Shown here piece after piece: positions 48,750-60,665 of a stretch of 64,000 nucleotides of DNA. The notes below the pieces were generated by a model, which had not been told where the DNA came from, did not search any database, and saw only the letters and a program-made list of their open reading frames with translations. The number at the start of each line of letters is the position of its first letter. The stretch's first letter is position 1. The position numbers were made by a program, and so were the translations under genes. Source of the DNA: Fusobacteriota bacterium (GTDB taxonomy: Bacteria; Bacillota; TC1); contig WTXA01000002.1 in assembly GCA_009773805.1 (NCBI GenBank), positions 1-64,000 of the forward strand, written 5' to 3'.

Positions 48750-49564
48750 TATTTATCCTCCTTAAACCATTTGTAAATCTTCAGATTTTTCCCTGCATCC
48801 CTGATTGTTTTTATAACTTTCGGGAATTTCCTAGAGCTAATTCCATATATGAATAGTTTTCTATTGGTTTTTATTAGTTTTGCCAATAAATCTTCATAGT
48901 CATTTTTCAAGGCTTCCATTCTATCTTCAGCATTGTCTTTAAAGGATTCTATTCTACCTTCAGCATGGTCCCTGAATGCTCCAATTTTATCTTCTGCGTT
49001 ATCCTTTAAGCTTTCGATCTCATTTAATATTAGATCAAGGGCTGAGATTTCTTTCCTAGTGTATATAGCTTTATTGACTGAAACCAATGTGTCTACTAAC
49101 ATGGCAGATACTAGTATATATTTCATTAAGCTCAAAACACCTATGCTTTCAAAAAAATTAGGTATCCTTTCAAAAACCGGATGGATAAAATATATGAAAA
49201 AATAGGCTAAAATTGTCCAGTAAATTGAGAACTTTAAGGAGATTCTACCATTAATGTTCAAGAAATTACTACTATAATCCCAAAGTCTTAAATTTAATAA
49301 TTTCTCTAATAAATATCCTGTTACATATTCTAATAAAGTGATAATTATGAAGGCAGCAGGTAGAAATATTAATAGGTTGTCTTTTATCGGTATAAGCAGA
49401 ACTAGTAAAAATAATGCCCCTACTCCATATATTGGACAGTATGGCCCATATAATAAACCTGGAAATACTATACTTTTGGTAACAATAGATCTATATATAG
49501 TTTCTAGTAAAAAGCCTAAAAAACTATAGAAGAAAAAATAAAAAATCAGTTGATCGAAATTCAT
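48749..49564 (-). CDS. CmpB-like membrane protein with four 11-residue coiled-coil repeats
   Basis: 271 aa. The N-terminal part (about 1-165) is an ABC_trans_CmpB-type membrane domain, about five spans, with GLLYGPYCPIYGVGALFLL and the family LWDYS motif. Residues about 185-230 hold four consecutive 11-residue repeats: IESLKDNAEDK, IGAFRDHAEGR, IESFKDNAEDR and MEALKNDYEDL. These should form a right-handed (hendecad) coiled coil. A basic C-terminus follows. The family name suggests transport, but no ATPase is nearby. Between LRR and bactofilin-like genes with one-base overlaps on both sides. Confidence 0.82.
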   Translation of the reverse strand: MNFDQLIFYFFFYSFLGFLLETIYRSIVTKSIVFPGLLYGPYCPIYGVGALFLLVLLIPIKDNLLIFLPAAFIIITLLEYVTGYLLEKLLNLRLWDYSSNFLNINGRISLKFSIYWTILAYFFIYFIHPVFERIPNFFESIGVLSLMKYILVSAMLVDTLVSVNKAIYTRKEISALDLILNEIESLKDNAEDKIGAFRDHAEGRIESFKDNAEDRMEALKNDYEDLLAKLIKTNRKLFIYGISSRKFPKVIKTIRDAGKNLKIYKWFKEDK

Positions 49565-50751
49565 TAAAATCCTCCTCTAGTTTTTATAAATCTTGTTCCT
49601 ACCACTAATACTAATCCTATACCAAAGGTTATTATTGATACATATAAATAAACACCTTTATCATTTTCAGGTAGTTCCTGGGTCTCTCTTATAGAAAACT
49701 TCTGTTCATAAATTGAAGGTGTATTTTCTTTGTCACCAAAAATATTGTTCGAGCCACCAGATATTGTGGTCCTAAGGATGTAGTCACCTACTGTATCGAT
49801 CAAGTTTCCTTCTAAAGTAACAACGCCACCATGTATTGAGTCTTTTAATTCAACTTCTGATCCGTCAGGCTTCACAAGTATCTGCTTAATATTAAACCCA
49901 AGATCCAAGGTATATATTTCAAATCCTTTAATCTTTACTTCTTGATGGATTATTCCACTATTATCAATAATTTCCTGGTAGCTTTGATTATATAAATATA
50001 CAGCTTTAATTCCAGTAAGCTTATTAAATAATTGAATATCCATTTTGTGTATCTGATTATATGAGAAGTCTAGAAAATATAGTTTTATTAGATTGCCTAA
50101 TTCCCAAGGTAATTCTTGAAGTTTATTTTTTCCAAAGTCTAATATTGTTAGATTACTTAATTCTCCTATTTTCTTTGGTAATTCCTCTAACAAGTTACCT
50201 TCTAGCACTAACATTTCTAATGATTTTAAAACTGAAATTTCTACAGGTAGGTCACTTATCATATTGTTTTGTAATTGAAGTTGTTCAAGCTTAGTTAATT
50301 TTGCAATTTCAGCTGATATTTTAGTAATTCTATTGTCACCTGCATCTAGTACTTCTAAATTAGTAAGATTTGTGACTCCTTGTCCTAGATCAGTTATTTG
50401 ATTGTTGTTAATTATTAAAATCCTAAGGTTTTGAAGTGCCCCAATTTCTTTTGGAATTTCTTTTATTTCATTACCGCTTATATCGAGCACTATGAGGTTT
50501 TTAAAGATTTCAATTCCATTAATACTATTTATTCCAATATCATTTATCATAAGACTTTTTATTTCTTCAGCTTCAGTAGTGCTGATTGTGTCTGTTTCTT
50601 TTTTATCTAAGATAGTGCAGATTTCATTTCTTAAGTCTTGATCAGGAAATTGTTCTACCATTGTTTTTACTTCTTCAGCTTTAATAGAACTTAGGTATGT
50701 TCCAAAAAAGCCTATAGTTAGGACAAATGTCAGTATTAATAATTTCTTCAT
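49564..50751 (-). CDS. Surface leucine-rich-repeat protein
   Basis: 395 aa. Signal peptide about 1-25. Six or more leucine-rich repeats of 22-23 residues (about 85-240), for example LTNLEVLDAGDNRITKISAE and LSNLTILDFGKNKLQELPWE. A beta domain follows (about 255-350), then a C-terminal membrane span (YVSIITFGIGLVLVVGTRFI) with a positive tail. It should be displayed outside the membrane. It lacks an LPXTG sorting signal. It heads a three-gene coupled operon with the CmpB-like and bactofilin-like genes, apparently an envelope assembly. Confidence 0.85.
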   Translation of the reverse strand: MKKLLILTFVLTIGFFGTYLSSIKAEEVKTMVEQFPDQDLRNEICTILDKKETDTISTTEAEEIKSLMINDIGINSINGIEIFKNLIVLDISGNEIKEIPKEIGALQNLRILIINNNQITDLGQGVTNLTNLEVLDAGDNRITKISAEIAKLTKLEQLQLQNNMISDLPVEISVLKSLEMLVLEGNLLEELPKKIGELSNLTILDFGKNKLQELPWELGNLIKLYFLDFSYNQIHKMDIQLFNKLTGIKAVYLYNQSYQEIIDNSGIIHQEVKIKGFEIYTLDLGFNIKQILVKPDGSEVELKDSIHGGVVTLEGNLIDTVGDYILRTTISGGSNNIFGDKENTPSIYEQKFSIRETQELPENDKGVYLYVSIITFGIGLVLVVGTRFIKTRGGF

Positions 50752-54192: not shown

Positions 54193-54236
54193 TTTCTAAA
54201 AAAACGACCCACACTGCATCTGCAGTATGGGTCGTT
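54193..54236 (-). terminator. Terminator hairpin just before the dehydrogenase operon (attenuator candidate)
   Basis: Minus-strand 16-bp stem AACGACCCATACTGCA / TGCAGTGTGGGTCGTT with one G-U position and a 2-base loop, then seven T. The T run is followed directly by AGAAAGGAG, the ribosome binding site of the first gene. It lies downstream of a promoter at 54265-54293, so it is in the leader of this operon as well as being the only terminator after the chimeric gene at 54302. Confidence 0.88.
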
Positions 54237-54301: not shown

Positions 54302-57001
54302 TTAATTTAGTTTTACCGCTTTTGAATAATCTGTTTTTAAAAACTCTCCATCTTGTAAGAAAATGTGACCTGATGAGTAGTTGTCCCTCTCTATGGTTAC
54401 TATAACTTTTTCTCTAGTGTAGTAGCCACCAAATGTGTTTACTATTGAGTTTAGAAGCATGGTTTCATAGTAGGCACCTGCATTCATTTCTGTTATGAAG
54501 GCCTTGTTAAGATTTACATGTACTGTCTCAAATTTATCTAAATATAAAGATAATACTTTTGTATTTGCTGTTAAGACATTACCTATGCCTTGATTCTTCA
54601 TACCATCATTGTAGTTAGCTCTATAGGCACTTTCTAGTTCTTCTCTAGTTATGTCGTTAGTGTTAAATGCTACTTCTGCTGTTATATAGTAGTATTTATC
54701 TGCATCAAGGTTTGGATAATAGAAATTAACTTGAGTTTTGTATGGTGTGTTTTTCTCTACTTTTTCAAGTGATGAGCTTATTTCATCAGTTCCTGTTATA
54801 TATTTACTTTGCACTAAGCCAACATCTTTGGCATAGTAATCTTTTGTTATTCCATTAGTATCAGTTGTGGTTACTTCTATAGCTTCATAATCACCATATG
54901 GTACTGTAACTTTTATGTCTATTCCGGTTATTTCTCTTTTATTACCATTTTTAAGTGTCCAACTGTTGCCTTTTTCTAGTGGTTCTTGAATTAAAATCTC
55001 TTCACTAAAGCTGTATCCATTCAATAGTTTGATGCTCAAGTCCATTTTTTCTTTTTCCATGTATATCATGATGGAGTAGGCTATTAGTATACCTAAGGTG
55101 ATTCCTGCGATTACAAATATTACTGCTATTTGGCTTAATGTTTCAAGATAGATAGTAACTTGACCGGCAATACTCCCGTAGACACTAAAAGCTTGAAAAT
55201 AATAAGCACTTAAACCAAGTTCATTAACCTTGTCGCTTATTGCCAGAAATGATTGATCAGGATTATTTACTTTTATCAGATATCCTCCATTATTAGAAAT
55301 ATCAAATCTTAAACCAGCTGTATTGTTATTTACTATTACTACTCTATCTTTAACCATATTATTAGTTTCAGGATACTTGAATATATCATATGTGAAATGT
55401 TCTTGACCATTTTCTATAATTATTGCTTTAATTGTTCCAAAATCCTTGGCAAAATATTCCGGCGCTAATTCATGTGCTGCTTTTTGCTCCTTTTTTCTAC
55501 CTTCAGAAAACTGTATTGGCACATCATGAAGTGAATAATAATTATTTTCTAAGTTATATATAATTTCATTTTTTAAACTAGCATATTTTTCAGGAATAAG
55601 AATATAGTTGATATTCTCATTGTCATCTACTGATATTTTATTATTATTAATATCGTAAATCGGATTCTTCTTGAGATAATTATTATTTATTTCTATGCTA
55701 TTCCACATTATACTTTCAAAGTATGACTGTGTTTCTCCATGTTTTTCACCATCAAATTTATCATTAACTTGTATTTGGATTCCACCTTTTTCGTTTGCGT
55801 ATACATATAACTTTTTATTTTGTACCATATTAAAGATCATATCTTCGAAATCATCAGTACGCTCTTCATAACTTAACGATACTTGAGCATAGTTAATTGT
55901 CTCTTCCCACTTCTTGAGGTTTTCAGAATAGAAGTTATATACAGGCATATATATCTTTAAACTATAAATGAATAAACCAATCAAAATTACAGTAAAAATA
56001 ATCTTAAAGCCATTACTAAATCTCCTGATAATCTGAACCGGTTTCATATTCTTAATTGCAGAACCTATAGTTATCTTATGCATGAAGCTCAAAGGTATTA
56101 AAAGAATAAGACAAACAATCACAAACAATACTGAAGTGTTTAGCAAAGATCGAAATACTAAATCAATATATAGAACACTTTTAAACTTTATAAAAAGCAG
56201 ACCTAAAATAGAATAGCTGACCACAGAACTAATTAAATAGAGCACCCCTATGTTTCTATAATATTCGTATTTCAGTTTATTGTCACTGTAGCCATTTAAT
56301 TTCTTCACACCAATATCCTTGTATCTAGAAATCAGATCATAGACAACTACCAAAATTGTTAGAAGAAAGACAATAATCATTGGAATAATTTTGAGTATTG
56401 GCGGTATCATGATTTTCCCTCGATTCATGCCACTTACTCTACTAACATCAACATGAAGTTCTGAACTAAGCTCTTTTATAAATGCATCTGATTTCTCTTT
56501 GGCAATATTTAAAGAATAGTAGCCTGAAAGGACATATTTCTCATCCTTCAAGTTTTCAAAGGTAGAAATTCTAATTTTAAAGTCATTGTCCAAAACACCT
56601 ATTCTTCCAATACTTTCCACATTGTTAATATCTCTAGAATCAAGATAATTGTTGCTTTTATCATAGTTATCTAATAAGACACCAGTAATTTTTAATTTTT
56701 TAAATATTTTACCACTATCCTTTAAATGTATATATTTAATCAGATTAAATTTTTCACCAGGTGCATTGTTATATACATTTAAAATAAGATCTGCTTCATA
56801 TTTCTCAGTAGTTGATATTAATGTATCAACCACCTCTTTTCTGTCTAAATTATTTATACCCTTATCAATCAATATTGTCGTAGCCTGTTCTTCTCCACTT
56901 ATTACAATATTATTGTTGATACTATTTTTTTCTAAATCATAGAATACAAAAAAAGAGAGGAGAATATTAACTATAAATAAACTTAACAATATTTTACGCA
57001 T
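54302..57001 (-). CDS. Chimeric gene: truncated 7TM bacteriocin-associated protein fused to a GerMN lipoprotein tail
   Basis: 899 aa. Residues 1 to about 665 match the neighbouring 734-aa gene (57474-59678) throughout: the same N-terminal anchor (MRKILLSLFIVNILLSFFVF), membrane spans at about 205-225, 245-265, 285-305 and 325-345, a large extracellular region, a span at about 630-655, then MDLSIKLLNGYSF. There the similarity stops. The last 234 residues (from SEEILIQEPLEKGNSWTL) belong to a different family: a GerMN-containing lipoprotein C-terminus, with VLSLYLDKFETVHVNLNKAF and YYETMLLNSIVNTFGG. The two C-terminal spans of the 7TM protein and the signal and lipobox of the lipoprotein are both missing. 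The junction is near 55003-55010. This looks like an in-frame deletion product; it may not function as a transporter. Confidence 0.88.
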   Translation of the reverse strand: MRKILLSLFIVNILLSFFVFYDLEKNSINNNIVISGEEQATTILIDKGINNLDRKEVVDTLISTTEKYEADLILNVYNNAPGEKFNLIKYIHLKDSGKIFKKLKITGVLLDNYDKSNNYLDSRDINNVESIGRIGVLDNDFKIRISTFENLKDEKYVLSGYYSLNIAKEKSDAFIKELSSELHVDVSRVSGMNRGKIMIPPILKIIPMIIVFLLTILVVVYDLISRYKDIGVKKLNGYSDNKLKYEYYRNIGVLYLISSVVSYSILGLLFIKFKSVLYIDLVFRSLLNTSVLFVIVCLILLIPLSFMHKITIGSAIKNMKPVQIIRRFSNGFKIIFTVILIGLFIYSLKIYMPVYNFYSENLKKWEETINYAQVSLSYEERTDDFEDMIFNMVQNKKLYVYANEKGGIQIQVNDKFDGEKHGETQSYFESIMWNSIEINNNYLKKNPIYDINNNKISVDDNENINYILIPEKYASLKNEIIYNLENNYYSLHDVPIQFSEGRKKEQKAAHELAPEYFAKDFGTIKAIIIENGQEHFTYDIFKYPETNNMVKDRVVIVNNNTAGLRFDISNNGGYLIKVNNPDQSFLAISDKVNELGLSAYYFQAFSVYGSIAGQVTIYLETLSQIAVIFVIAGITLGILIAYSIMIYMEKEKMDLSIKLLNGYSFSEEILIQEPLEKGNSWTLKNGNKREITGIDIKVTVPYGDYEAIEVTTTDTNGITKDYYAKDVGLVQSKYITGTDEISSSLEKVEKNTPYKTQVNFYYPNLDADKYYYITAEVAFNTNDITREELESAYRANYNDGMKNQGIGNVLTANTKVLSLYLDKFETVHVNLNKAFITEMNAGAYYETMLLNSIVNTFGGYYTREKVIVTIERDNYSSGHIFLQDGEFLKTDYSKAVKLN

Positions 57002-57045
57002 TTACTTCACCTCTCTTTCTTTTTAATATAAATATTTTTAAATTC

Positions 57046-57384
57046 CTACCAAGTCAAATAATCATGATATGATCGCCATTGCCATGGGTACCAGTAACCT
57101 GTTTTAGCATATGACCATGAATTATGAACTTTCCAATACTTACCATTGTAGTAGTAAGTACCCGATGAATTAACAAGGGTGTTGTCTTGTAATGCTGATG
57201 ATCTGTGATAATTTGGATGCCAATAATTAGAATACTGGCTCTGTTGCCATATCAAATTATAATCAAGACCATAGCTCCAAAGACCTCCTCCAGCATTCAC
57301 CTCGACAGCTTTAGCCGGACTGGAAATGACTAATCCAAAACTTAAAAGCAACATAGTACCAAGAATGATTTTAAACTTTTTCAT
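57046..57384 (-). CDS. Lactococcin 972-like bacteriocin precursor (copy 1)
   Basis: 112 aa from the ATG at 57384, behind AAAGGAGAACGGT. Signal peptide about 1-26 (MKKFKIILGTMLLLSFGLVI, ending SSPAKA). The mature part is rich in Tyr, Trp, Ser and Asn and has the family pattern GGGLWSYG ... QYSNYWHPNYHRSSALQDN ... WKVHNSWSYAKTGYW. Lactococcin 972 is a secreted, unmodified bacteriocin that binds lipid II and blocks septum formation. Relatives are always beside a 7TM (DUF1430) gene, as here (44 bp upstream of 57001). No double-glycine leader; export is by Sec. Confidence 0.85.
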   Translation of the reverse strand: MKKFKIILGTMLLLSFGLVISSPAKAVEVNAGGGLWSYGLDYNLIWQQSQYSNYWHPNYHRSSALQDNTLVNSSGTYYYNGKYWKVHNSWSYAKTGYWYPWQWRSYHDYLTW

Positions 57385-57433
57385 ACCGTTCTCCTTTCTT
57401 TTAAAGTATTTATCCATTGCAATAGATTACAAA
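57305..57433. repeat. 129-bp near-identical repeat, copy A
   Basis: Covers the promoter-proximal leader, ribosome binding site and signal-peptide codons of bacteriocin copy 1. By my count it differs from 59982-60110 at 5 of 129 positions, while the mature-peptide regions have diverged. It contains ATTGCAAT, a perfect palindrome, about 25 bp before the ribosome binding site. Confidence 0.88.
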
Positions 57434-57473
57434 ATCACGAATCCTATCCATATTCATTTCATAATATATACTT

Positions 57474-59678
57474 TTAATTACCTTTTAAAATGTCCTTTAT
57501 ATTTCTTTTTTCATAAATACTAATGAAAATGTATGTTAACAATAAATCTAGAATCACTATCCCTACTAATAATAATGCTAGTGCCATAGTTTCAGTAGCA
57601 TTCCCTCTTACAAATAGAAAAGAAGGGAGAAAAAAGATATAAAATAATATTGTTCGCAACAGTTTCCTACCATGTCTTCCAATAAAGCTGTAGCCATTCA
57701 ACAACTTGACGCTCAGATCCATTTTTTCTTTTTCCATGTATATCATTATAGAGTAGGCTATTAATATGGCTATGGTAACTCCTGCAATTCCAAATATTAC
57801 TAAAATCTGACTTAGTATACCTAAGTACATATTGACCTGTTCTGCGACATTACTATAGGCACTATAGGCATCATAATAGTAAGCCTCAAGTCCTAGTTCC
57901 TTTACCTTGTCACTAATAGAAAGGAATGGTTCCTCTGGATTTTCCACCTTGATGAAATAGCCTAAATTTGTACTAATATCACCATTTTTGTATGCACCTT
58001 TGGTATTAATATCAATAATTCTATCATAGACCATATTTTTTGATTCTGGATGCACATTCATATCATAGGTAAAATAACCCTGGTCATTTTTTATGACTAT
58101 TATTTTTATAGTATCCGGTTCATTACCAAAAAGTTCAGGTTCCTTTTCATTTAATACTAGCTGCACTCTTTTAATGTCTTCGGCAAGTTCTTTTGGAATA
58201 TCATGAAATGAAATATAGTAGTTTTCATAGGTCTTGATAATTTGTTCCTCTAGATAAGCATACTTTTCAGGAACAAGAAAAGTATGTACACACTCATTTT
58301 CATCAATAGAAACAACCTTTCCATTCAAGTCATATACTGGATGTTTCTTTAAATAATTGTTATTCAAGAGTACTGTGTTCTCTATAATATTTTCTTCTTC
58401 ACGTTTCTTGGGATCACTATTATTACTTTGGTAAAAGTCATTGATTAGAACTTGTATTCCACCCATTTCATTAACATAAAAATAAAGTTTCTTATGTTGT
58501 ATTAAACTCCATATTCTCTCATCAAAATCTTCATTTTCATTATAATAATGTGAATCAACCTGAGCATAATCAATTGCAGCCTCCCACTTCTTGAAATTCT
58601 CAAAATAAAAACTATAAACAGGCACATAAAGCTTTAGACCGCTAATGAACAAACCAATAAGAATAAAAGTAAATATAAACTTAAAAACAATACTAAATCT
58701 TTTAACAATATGAACTGGTTTTTTGTTCTTTATAGCAGAAGACATCTTTATCCTTCTTATGAAATTCAAGGAAATAAGAAGAATAAGACATATTAAAAGG
58801 AATAAAATACCTGTTACTATCAATGATTTAAAAACAAGTTCCACATATAGAATATTTCTAAATTTAATATAGAGAATTCCCAAAATAGAATAACTAATGA
58901 TTGTACTGATTAAATATAGCCAACAAATTCCCTTATAGTATTCTAACTTCAAGCTATTTTCACTATAGCCATTTAGTTTTTTCACACCAATATCCTTGTA
59001 TTTTGATATTAAGTCAAAAACTACTACCAAAACAGATAAAAGAAAAACAATAATCATTGGAATGATTTTTAATATTGGAGGAATCACCACCCTGTTATTA
59101 TTAAAATTCTTCTCTAACGTAACATTTATACCCAACTCACCTTTAAGTTCTGATATAAAGGCTTCAACCATAGATTTATTAATATTCACACTATAGAACC
59201 CAGACAAGGTATATTTACTTTCTTTTAAGTTTTCAAAGGTTGCTATCTTAAAATAGATATCTGGATCCATGACTAAAATACTTCCAACCTGTTGTCCATT
59301 ATCTATATTCCCTGTATCAAGGTAGCTCATACTTGTATCATAATTATCGATTACATTTCCCTTAACTCTAATATCTTTAAATAATTGTTCACTATCCTTC
59401 AAATATACAAACTTCACTAATTTAAGCTTTTGACTTGGGGCATTGTTATATACCCTGAAGATAACATCTGCCTCATATTTTTTTGTAACCTTTTGTATTT
59501 TATCTATAGTCTTATTTCTTTCTAGTTCATTGATTCCTTTGTCAACAAAAATAGTGAAATTCTGATCTTCACCACTTTTTGATATTCTTTCGTTTATACT
59601 GTTATTCTCTAGGTCATAAAATATAAAGAAAGAGAGGAGAATATTGATTAAGAATAAACTTACTAATATTTTACGCAT
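57474..59678 (-). CDS. Bacteriocin-associated 7TM membrane protein (DUF1430 type), intact copy
   Basis: 734 aa. Family of the membrane partner found with lactococcin 972-like peptides, proposed as immunity or export component. N-terminal anchor about 1-20; large extracellular region to about 195; spans at about 205-230, 250-275, 285-308 and 330-350; second extracellular region; then about 635-660 (IAGVTIAILIAYSIMIYM), and two final spans (about 682-697 and 700-722). MDLSVKLLNGYSF precedes the last two spans, as in FtsX-like permeases. A companion ABC ATPase gene normally follows, but here bacteriocin copy 1 follows. It is 35 bp after bacteriocin copy 2. Confidence 0.86.
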   Translation of the reverse strand: MRKILVSLFLINILLSFFIFYDLENNSINERISKSGEDQNFTIFVDKGINELERNKTIDKIQKVTKKYEADVIFRVYNNAPSQKLKLVKFVYLKDSEQLFKDIRVKGNVIDNYDTSMSYLDTGNIDNGQQVGSILVMDPDIYFKIATFENLKESKYTLSGFYSVNINKSMVEAFISELKGELGINVTLEKNFNNNRVVIPPILKIIPMIIVFLLSVLVVVFDLISKYKDIGVKKLNGYSENSLKLEYYKGICWLYLISTIISYSILGILYIKFRNILYVELVFKSLIVTGILFLLICLILLISLNFIRRIKMSSAIKNKKPVHIVKRFSIVFKFIFTFILIGLFISGLKLYVPVYSFYFENFKKWEAAIDYAQVDSHYYNENEDFDERIWSLIQHKKLYFYVNEMGGIQVLINDFYQSNNSDPKKREEENIIENTVLLNNNYLKKHPVYDLNGKVVSIDENECVHTFLVPEKYAYLEEQIIKTYENYYISFHDIPKELAEDIKRVQLVLNEKEPELFGNEPDTIKIIVIKNDQGYFTYDMNVHPESKNMVYDRIIDINTKGAYKNGDISTNLGYFIKVENPEEPFLSISDKVKELGLEAYYYDAYSAYSNVAEQVNMYLGILSQILVIFGIAGVTIAILIAYSIMIYMEKEKMDLSVKLLNGYSFIGRHGRKLLRTILFYIFFLPSFLFVRGNATETMALALLLVGIVILDLLLTYIFISIYEKRNIKDILKGN

Positions 59679-59713
59679 AGATTCACCTCTCTTTCTAATT
59701 AATTCACTATTAA

Positions 59714-60061
59714 CTAATAGTTTAGATAACTGTAATAGGAACGATGATAATAACCATTAGATGAATAGCTGGTTCTTGCTCTAGCCCAGCTATTATGGAC
59801 TGTCCACAAATGTGAACCTTGATTTGGTAAAGTTCTACCTGGTGAATAAGCATTTACATTATCCTGCATTGCTGTAGACCTGTGCCAGTTTGGATGCCAG
59901 AAATCTGAATACTGCCTACTTTTATATAACCAGTTGTACTCAACCCCAAAATCCCAAAGACCACCTCCAACCTCCATCTCTACAGCTTTAGCCGGACTGG
60001 AAATGACCAACCCAAAACTTAAAAGCAACATAGTACCAAGAATGATTTTAAACTTTTTCAT
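59714..60061 (-). CDS. Lactococcin 972-like bacteriocin precursor (copy 2)
   Basis: 115 aa from the ATG at 60061. The signal peptide is identical to copy 1 (MKKFKIILGTMLLLSFGLVI, SSPAKA). The mature part is GGGLWDFGVEYNWLYKSRQY, SDFWHPNWHRSTAMQDN and LWTVHNSWARARTSY. Against copy 1 the pattern WHPN.HRS.A.QDN and VHNSW is kept, but spacing and C-terminus differ, so the two peptides may have different targets. First bacteriocin gene of the operon, 49 bp after the Fur-like gene. Confidence 0.85.
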   Translation of the reverse strand: MKKFKIILGTMLLLSFGLVISSPAKAVEMEVGGGLWDFGVEYNWLYKSRQYSDFWHPNWHRSTAMQDNVNAYSPGRTLPNQGSHLWTVHNSWARARTSYSSNGYYHRSYYSYLNY

Positions 60062-60110
60062 ACCGTTCACCTTTCTTTTAAAATATTTATCCATTGCAAT
60101 AGATTTCAAA
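59982..60110. repeat. 129-bp near-identical repeat, copy B
   Basis: Partner of 57305-57433. It runs from the signal-peptide cleavage region through the leader to the stop codon of the Fur-like gene, marking the edge of the duplicated unit. Confidence 0.88.
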
Positions 60111-60374
60111 CTAAAGATCCCTACCATCAGGATCAATTAAGCCCATACTCCTAAACAAACACAAATTCTTGTAAACAGAAGATAAAGAAATAAAATAACC
60201 CTCCTCGAGAAGAGCACTATAAATCCTACTTGCTCTGTACCAATTGTCATCACCATCATCATCAGAACCCTGCTCCTCCATCAAATATGACAACATCCTA
60301 AACCTATGAGGAGTTACCACCATACCCTTACCCTTTAAGACACCAAATATATCCTTACTCCCATAAATACTCAT
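60111..60374 (-). CDS. Minimal Fur-like winged-helix protein
   Basis: 87 aa. The segment MVVTPHRFRMLSYLMEE ... ASRIYSALLEEGYFISLSSV ... YKNLCLFRSMGLID aligns with the N-terminal DNA-binding domain of Fur/PerR proteins (TPQR..I...L; A..IY..L; IS..TVY.NL......GLI). The metal-binding and dimerisation domain is absent; the protein ends right after the winged helix. It has an acidic insert (GSDDDGDDNW). It is either a minimal regulator or a truncated gene. It starts behind GGGGGGATTTT and precedes bacteriocin copy 2 in the same direction, so it may control the locus. Confidence 0.72.
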   Translation of the reverse strand: MSIYGSKDIFGVLKGKGMVVTPHRFRMLSYLMEEQGSDDDGDDNWYRASRIYSALLEEGYFISLSSVYKNLCLFRSMGLIDPDGRDL

Positions 60375-60636: not shown

Positions 60637-60665
60637 ATCATAATCAATTTAAAATTGAATGTCAA
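60637..60665 (-). promoter_or_regulatory. Promoter of the XRE-bacteriocin unit with central operator
   Basis: Minus-strand TTGACA (60665-60660), 17-bp spacer, TATGAT (60642-60637). The spacer is almost wholly a perfect palindrome, TCAATTTAAAATTGA (60644-60658), a natural site for a small XRE dimer. The leader is about 12 nt. Confidence 0.82.

Follow-up and report, generated by a model that had tools for sequence, protein, structure and literature searches.

The window analysed here, a stretch of 64,000 nucleotides of contig WTXA01000002.1 from an uncultured anaerobic bacterium, carries a locus on its minus strand that runs from a promoter through a small XRE-type regulator, half of a Fur-type protein, peptide A, the membrane protein 7TM A, peptide B and an ORF of 899 codons to a terminator (Table 1). 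The locus looks like a single operon because its intergenic gaps are short. The promoter sequence is kept in two genomes of the same genus (G003 and G004), and the near-palindrome TCAATTTTAAATTGA within it probably serves as an operator through which the small XRE protein regulates its own operon. The gene for this protein, whose true start probably lies a few codons downstream of the called one, has counterparts in loci L003 and L005 and is listed in two of the three congeners; in the third, the promoter operator is nonetheless present. The Fur-type protein has counterparts in all three relatives at 36 to 40% identity and is evolving fast.

Table 1. Features of the peptide locus, in positions of the window and in the order of transcription.
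Feature	Position	Strand	Evidence or remark
Operon promoter, TTGACA-17-TATGAT	60637-60665	-	11/12 consensus
Near-palindrome TCAATTTTAAATTGA between -35 and -10 of the operon promoter		-	also in G001
Small XRE-type HTH regulator, 70 aa	60418-60630	-	PF01381, 27.3 bits (cut-off 23)
Small Fur-type winged-helix protein, N-terminal half only, 87 aa	60111-60374	-	PF01475, 31.3 bits (cut-off 23.1)
Peptide A leader tract	59981-60106	-	partner 57304-57429
Peptide A precursor, 115 aa, 26-aa signal peptide	59714-60061	-	
7TM A, intact DUF1430/bacteriocin-associated membrane protein, 734 aa	57474-59678	-	PF07242, hydropathy
Peptide B leader tract (5' UTR and signal peptide)	57304-57429	-	partner 59981-60106
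Peptide B precursor, 112 aa	57046-57384	-	
Fusion ORF, 899 aa	54302-57001	-	
7TM B portion of the fusion, first ~664 residues	55009-57001	-	alignment with 7TM proteins
Fusion junction, TTTA microhomology (..TACAGCTTTA / TTTAGTGAAGAG..)	55005-55012	-	alignments to the relatives' 7TM and Germane genes
Germane lipoprotein, C-terminal ~235 aa, fused in frame to 7TM B	54302-55006	-	PF10646, 37.4 bits (cut-off 23)
Intrinsic terminator after the fusion gene, 15-bp stem and T run, strong	54203-54236	-	

The precursor lengths of peptides A and B refer to the ATG that is preceded by a ribosome-binding site; a further in-frame start lies upstream. Both precursors are of the Sec type, with a lysine-rich start, a hydrophobic core and a PAKA site (the cleavage site was judged by eye), and the mature peptides of 86 and 89 aa are free of cysteine. 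The sequence-only reading had described two secreted peptides with identical signal peptides and different mature parts, and the alignment agreed: the first 28 residues, spanning the signal peptide, are identical, the mature parts differ, and overall identity is 58%. The relatives' single peptide shares 64 to 69% identity with peptide B, as against 50 to 51% with peptide A. Peptide A matched the genus peptide profile with E=3.7e-58, a profile that was built with peptide A included. When a profile of five peptides was searched against 398 genomes of the phylum, the only match outside the genus had E=0.006 and contained a stop.

Neither window peptide matches PF09683 or TIGR01653, unlike the Bacillus positive-control peptides, which pass both. 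The peptide of G001 scored 21.4 bits against PF09683 as a protein and 24.3 bits in a six-frame search (cut-off 22). Against the Bacillus Lcn972 profile, peptide B and the G001 peptide scored above all 2000 shuffles, and 5% of the shuffles (n=2000) equalled or exceeded the score of peptide A. Peptide B retains the pattern W-x2-G...YSNY-x-H...HRS. A profile comparison of the genus peptides with three Bacillus Lcn972 peptides aligned 30 columns with E=0.0015 and a probability of 16%. AlphaFold2 predictions of the peptides from the five-sequence alignment, with and without the signal peptide, reached a mean pLDDT of only 43.6 and 38.3, and PDB sequence searches, run with peptide B as well as the peptide profile, returned chance matches only, among them chains of Fc epsilon receptor and of cysteine protease. 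For the 7TM proteins, the profiles of the window genus and of Bacillus aligned over 525 columns (hhalign E=1.5e-27). The locus had been called lactococcin-972-type from the sequence alone, with a missing Lactococcin_972 profile match named as evidence against it. That match is missing for the window peptides, which formally speaks against the assignment. The context, namely the ATPase of the congeners, the 7TM protein and the gene order, speaks for it, and it supports placing the genus loci in the lactococcin-972 system, with peptides that are remote by sequence.

7TM A matches PF07242 with 30.0 bits (cut-off 28.2) and TIGR01654 with 138.6 bits and E=2.6e-40, the latter a match under the cut-off of 189. 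Hydropathy predicts eight hydrophobic segments in 7TM A, and the fusion retains six. Alignment with three congeners showed that the 899-aa protein is homologous to 7TM proteins (734 aa) up to residue ~664-665 only; its 7TM B part is without the last two membrane helices, that is, the DUF1430 end, and a PF07242 match is absent from the fusion. Past residue ~664, the protein aligns with the stand-alone Germane protein of the relatives from about 120 residues in. The relatives' proteins have 355 to 358 aa and a lipobox-like lipoprotein signal, and the fused part, which is missing this signal and the first ~120 residues, is 70 to 76% identical to them. The Germane domain (PF10646) lies at residues 760-871 of the fusion, and this fused copy is the single one in the window genome. 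The earlier statement that each peptide is followed by a DUF1430-type 7TM gene thus holds for the first unit with its intact protein, and fails for the second, where the gene is a fusion with a Germane end.

Lysine-rich loops follow segments 2 and 6 of 7TM A, each with an LNGYS motif, and we take them to be the cytoplasmic coupling region of FtsX/MacB-like proteins; the PF02687 match is weak. Since the membrane part of the fusion stops right after the second LNGYS loop, the Germane domain should be cytoplasmic. It is a secreted lipoprotein in the relatives, and both functions are thus thought to be lost: according to this predicted topology, the fusion is probably non-functional both as a transporter subunit and as a Germane protein. 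The 899 codons contain no stop and no frameshift, and neither half is more decayed than its neighbours, suggesting that the fusion may be recent or even maintained.

A separate observation concerns the large extracellular domain of the 7TM proteins (residues 351-624), which has a history unlike that of the rest of the protein. For these residues, 7TM B grouped with G001 and G003 to the exclusion of G004 (bootstrap 100), and a species-like tree was rejected (AU p=0.006). For residues 1-350, the three congeners grouped together (alternatives p<0.005). The domain may have been exchanged or placed under changing selection, as expected for a specificity domain.

We compared the locus with the syntenic loci of three genomes of the same genus (G001, G003 and G004), all of which have the order Fur-like protein, one peptide, 7TM, ABC ATPase, DUF5362, VanZ and Germane. 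Their ATPases pass TIGR03608 in all three cases (263 to 272 bits against 254.85), and both 7TM proteins tested exceed the gathering score of DUF1430. No ATPase of the window genome reached the TIGR03608 cut-off (best 221.6 against 254.85 bits), and a search with the congener ATPase gave a closest protein of 40% identity, compared to 81 to 85% among the relatives. VanZ had no match in the window genome and was found in four of four congeners. The window assembly is 98.5% complete and consists of four contigs. TTTA is common to both parents at the fusion junction, and the reading frame is preserved across it. Measured on G001, the lost stretch of ~2.6 kb takes in the last 70 codons of the 7TM gene, the first third of the Germane gene and everything between them. 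The absence of the ATPase, a point that the sequence-only reading did not contain, and of VanZ from the genome points to their removal by a ~2.6-kb deletion at the TTTA microhomology.

The two units repeat with a period of 2,677 nt, and blastn aligned 2,488 nt at 67.8% (E=0), which bears out the proposed tandem duplication followed by divergence, albeit as an old event. 7TM A and B are 56% identical, compared to 58 to 65% with the congeners and 70 to 79% among the congeners, and 201 of 365 same-residue codons in the 7TM genes are identical between A and B, near the between-species level. As the copies are as diverged as those of other species, the duplication is old. Only the 126-nt leader tract is near-identical (120 of 126 nt), and in its signal-peptide part 22 of 24 same-residue codons are identical, significantly more than in the 7TM genes (Fisher p=4e-4). 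The identical signal peptides therefore point to recent homogenisation, not to recent duplication, and a short gene-conversion tract (~126 nt) would be the simplest explanation. The element TATTGCAATGRATAAATAYTTTA, part of the leader tract, is conserved ahead of the peptide gene in all species, so constraint accounts for part of the leader identity; it is insufficient for the signal-peptide codons, since those differ between species. Unit B is in the ancestral position. In a 7TM tree rooted with Bacillus proteins, all four placements of A and B were within the AU confidence set.

Probably, the locus is a bacteriocin operon of the lactococcin-972-like kind that underwent an old tandem duplication and, later, a single deletion that disabled part of it. 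The genus operon can be read from the gene orders as XRE, Fur-like protein, peptide, 7TM, ABC ATPase, DUF5362, VanZ and Germane lipoprotein. Before the deletion, both peptide-7TM units would have been served by one shared ATPase gene. An illegitimate deletion of ~2.6 kb at the 4-bp TTTA repeat would have created the 7TM B-Germane fusion, and the Germane domain, normally part of an extracellular lipoprotein, would now follow the sixth membrane helix into the cytoplasm. The lactococcin 972 locus comprises the structural gene and the putative immunity ABC genes orf2-orf3 (PMC4055356), and Lcn972 binds lipid II and blocks septum formation (PMC4055356; PMC11796350). Export in systems of this type is thought to be by Sec, and the roles of the B and C proteins are unverified in any such locus (PMC11796350). 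By analogy, the peptides would be exported by Sec and target the cell-wall synthesis of close relatives, and the MacB/FtsX-like 7TM protein with the ATPase would shield the producer; on this basis, the product of the congeners is probably a narrow bacteriocin against which they protect themselves. Both peptides and the intact 7TM A can still be made by the window species, with the cognate ATPase absent. If the peptides are made, protection might come from the ATPase of another transporter or from an ATP-independent role of 7TM A.

Several other explanations were weighed. The peptides may not be bacteriocins and may instead have a role in the producer itself, where the 7TM/ABC module would receive them as secreted ligands or as signals of envelope stress. 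They miss both family profiles, XRE and Fur-like regulators head the operon, and the peptides were retained despite the loss of the ATPase, whereas a toxic peptide ought to burden a cell that has lost the matching immunity ATPase. However, the relatives' operons fit the Lcn972 kind in ATPase, 7TM protein and order, the peptide of one relative scores at the PF09683 cut-off, and the residue pattern given above is retained in peptide B; we give this explanation a limited but appreciable chance. It is unlikely that the junction is an assembly artefact or reflects a population mixture, such that ~2.6 kb was skipped and the real genome has an intact 7TM B, ATPase, DUF5362, VanZ and Germane. The congeners are MAGs, the window genome may be one too, and the junction is close to the 2.7-kb tandem repeat. 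Against this, the missing genes are nowhere else in the nearly complete assembly, and the junction shows microhomology and an intact frame. It also lies off the homologous positions of the repeat, whose copies are only ~68% identical; repeat-mediated assembly collapse was rejected on the ground of this position.

The open frame over 899 codons, without decay of either half, and the strong terminator after the gene would be compatible with a selected, working fusion protein, in which a 7TM protein minus two helices carries a Germane sensor or binding domain and perhaps forms a heterodimer with 7TM A. Yet one-third of chance deletions preserve the frame, the protein is short of two of the eight helices and of the PF07242 end, the ATPase is likewise missing, and the Germane domain is predicted to be cytoplasmic, as opposed to the secreted lipoprotein with a lipobox-like signal in all relatives, leaving this explanation a very slight chance. 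The original version, taken as two complete peptide-7TM units that arose by tandem duplication in recent times and whose peptides have diverged targets or include a decoy, is favoured by the regular period of the repeat and the identical signal peptides. It is hardly tenable: the second unit ends in a truncated, fused 7TM gene, no ATPase is present, and the duplication is old, with only the leader homogenised recently.

Under the preferred reading, an old duplication followed by one deletion, two peptides and an intact 7TM protein with the ATPase lost amount to a natural experiment on Lcn972 loci. Production of active peptides would mean that self-protection does not require the ATPase, or that the ATPase can be replaced; with silent peptides, the locus would instead reveal the sequence of steps in operon decay. 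There is a small chance that the two peptides and the 7TM protein work without an ATPase of their own, by a borrowed ATPase or ATP-free protection, and that the fusion is maintained as a new protein. The untested roles of 7TM protein and ATPase in Lcn972 loci would then be separable. Otherwise, the locus represents ordinary bacteriocin-locus turnover and a caution against inferring two complete units from ORFs alone.

The lactococcin 972 operon of Lactococcus lactis pBL1 (lcn972-orf2-orf3; PF09683, TIGR01654/PF07242, TIGR03608) shares with the window locus a Sec-type signal peptide, a cysteine-free mature peptide and an adjoining DUF1430 membrane protein, and the congeners, like pBL1, have the TIGR03608 ATPase downstream. 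The window peptides differ from Lcn972 in a mature part that is ~20 residues longer, with more tryptophan and tyrosine, and in missing both profiles. The window locus also differs in its two peptides and two 7TM units, the absent ATPase, the fusion of the second 7TM to Germane, and the XRE and Fur-like regulators inside the operon. Bacillus plasmid loci (NZ_CP061871.1 and NZ_OK210095.1; L033 and L034) have the order peptide, DUF1430 protein and ABC ATPase, as in the congeners.

Lcn972-like genes have been described before from anaerobes, also as pairs in one genome: the available portion of PMC4289311 names Desulfitobacterium hafniense (DSY2024) and Bifidobacterium longum infantis (two genes), and a tandem peptide-7TM duplication or a 7TM fusion is not reported in that portion. 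In pneumococci, the streptococcins A to E (scbABC; PMC11796350, PMC6120550) likewise form several diverged Lcn972-like loci per genome, and partial clusters are common. The pneumococcal loci lie at separate sites, unlike the tandem units of the window. In addition, partial pneumococcal loci are mostly without the bacteriocin gene and keep immunity and transport (PMC6120550), whereas the window locus shows the reverse, with the peptides kept and the ATPase lost. This reversal of the pneumococcal pattern suggests silent peptides, a borrowed ATPase or a junction artefact.

Comparison with three genomes of the same genus (G001, G003 and G004) showed that the sequence of the operon promoter, TTGACATTCAATTTTAAATTGATTA.., is shared by G003 and G004. 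A near-palindrome, TCAATTTTAAATTGA, lies between the -35 and -10 elements of this promoter and occurs in G001 as well; no second copy was found in the window with up to one mismatch allowed. The near-palindrome is probably the operator for autoregulation by the small XRE protein.

An element of about 23 nt, TATTGCAATGRATAAATAYTTTA, was kept 5' of all peptide genes in the genus, and its conservation extends to the in-frame reading M-(D/N)-K-Y-F. It represents an alternative start or, if not, an element within the 5' UTR. In G001, an additional FtsX-like membrane protein gene sits 5' of the peptide gene, and none was found at the corresponding spot in G003, G004 or the window.

Features of the operon and its surroundings (L004, locus in G001)
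Feature	Position	Strand	Remark
Secreted leucine-rich-repeat protein	49564-50751	-	membrane segment at C-terminal end
Conserved element (~23 nt), two window copies	57397-57419, 60074-60096	-	kept across the genus
Fur-type protein, half-length	60111-60374	-	winged-helix part only
Operon promoter	60637-60665	-	sequence kept in G003 and G004
FtsX-like membrane protein gene	L004:4251-5120	-	additional in G001

The leucine-rich-repeat protein was kept across the genus and lies in the same neighbourhood there. The half-length Fur-type protein showed 36-40% identity to the congeners, as opposed to 58-83% for its neighbours, and its evolution is very fast. Phylogenies were also compared for the 7TM genes of the window (57474-59678 and 55009-57001) and of the congeners, and that of the large extracellular domain (aa 351-624) conflicted with the remainder of the protein, which suggests recombination or trans-species types.
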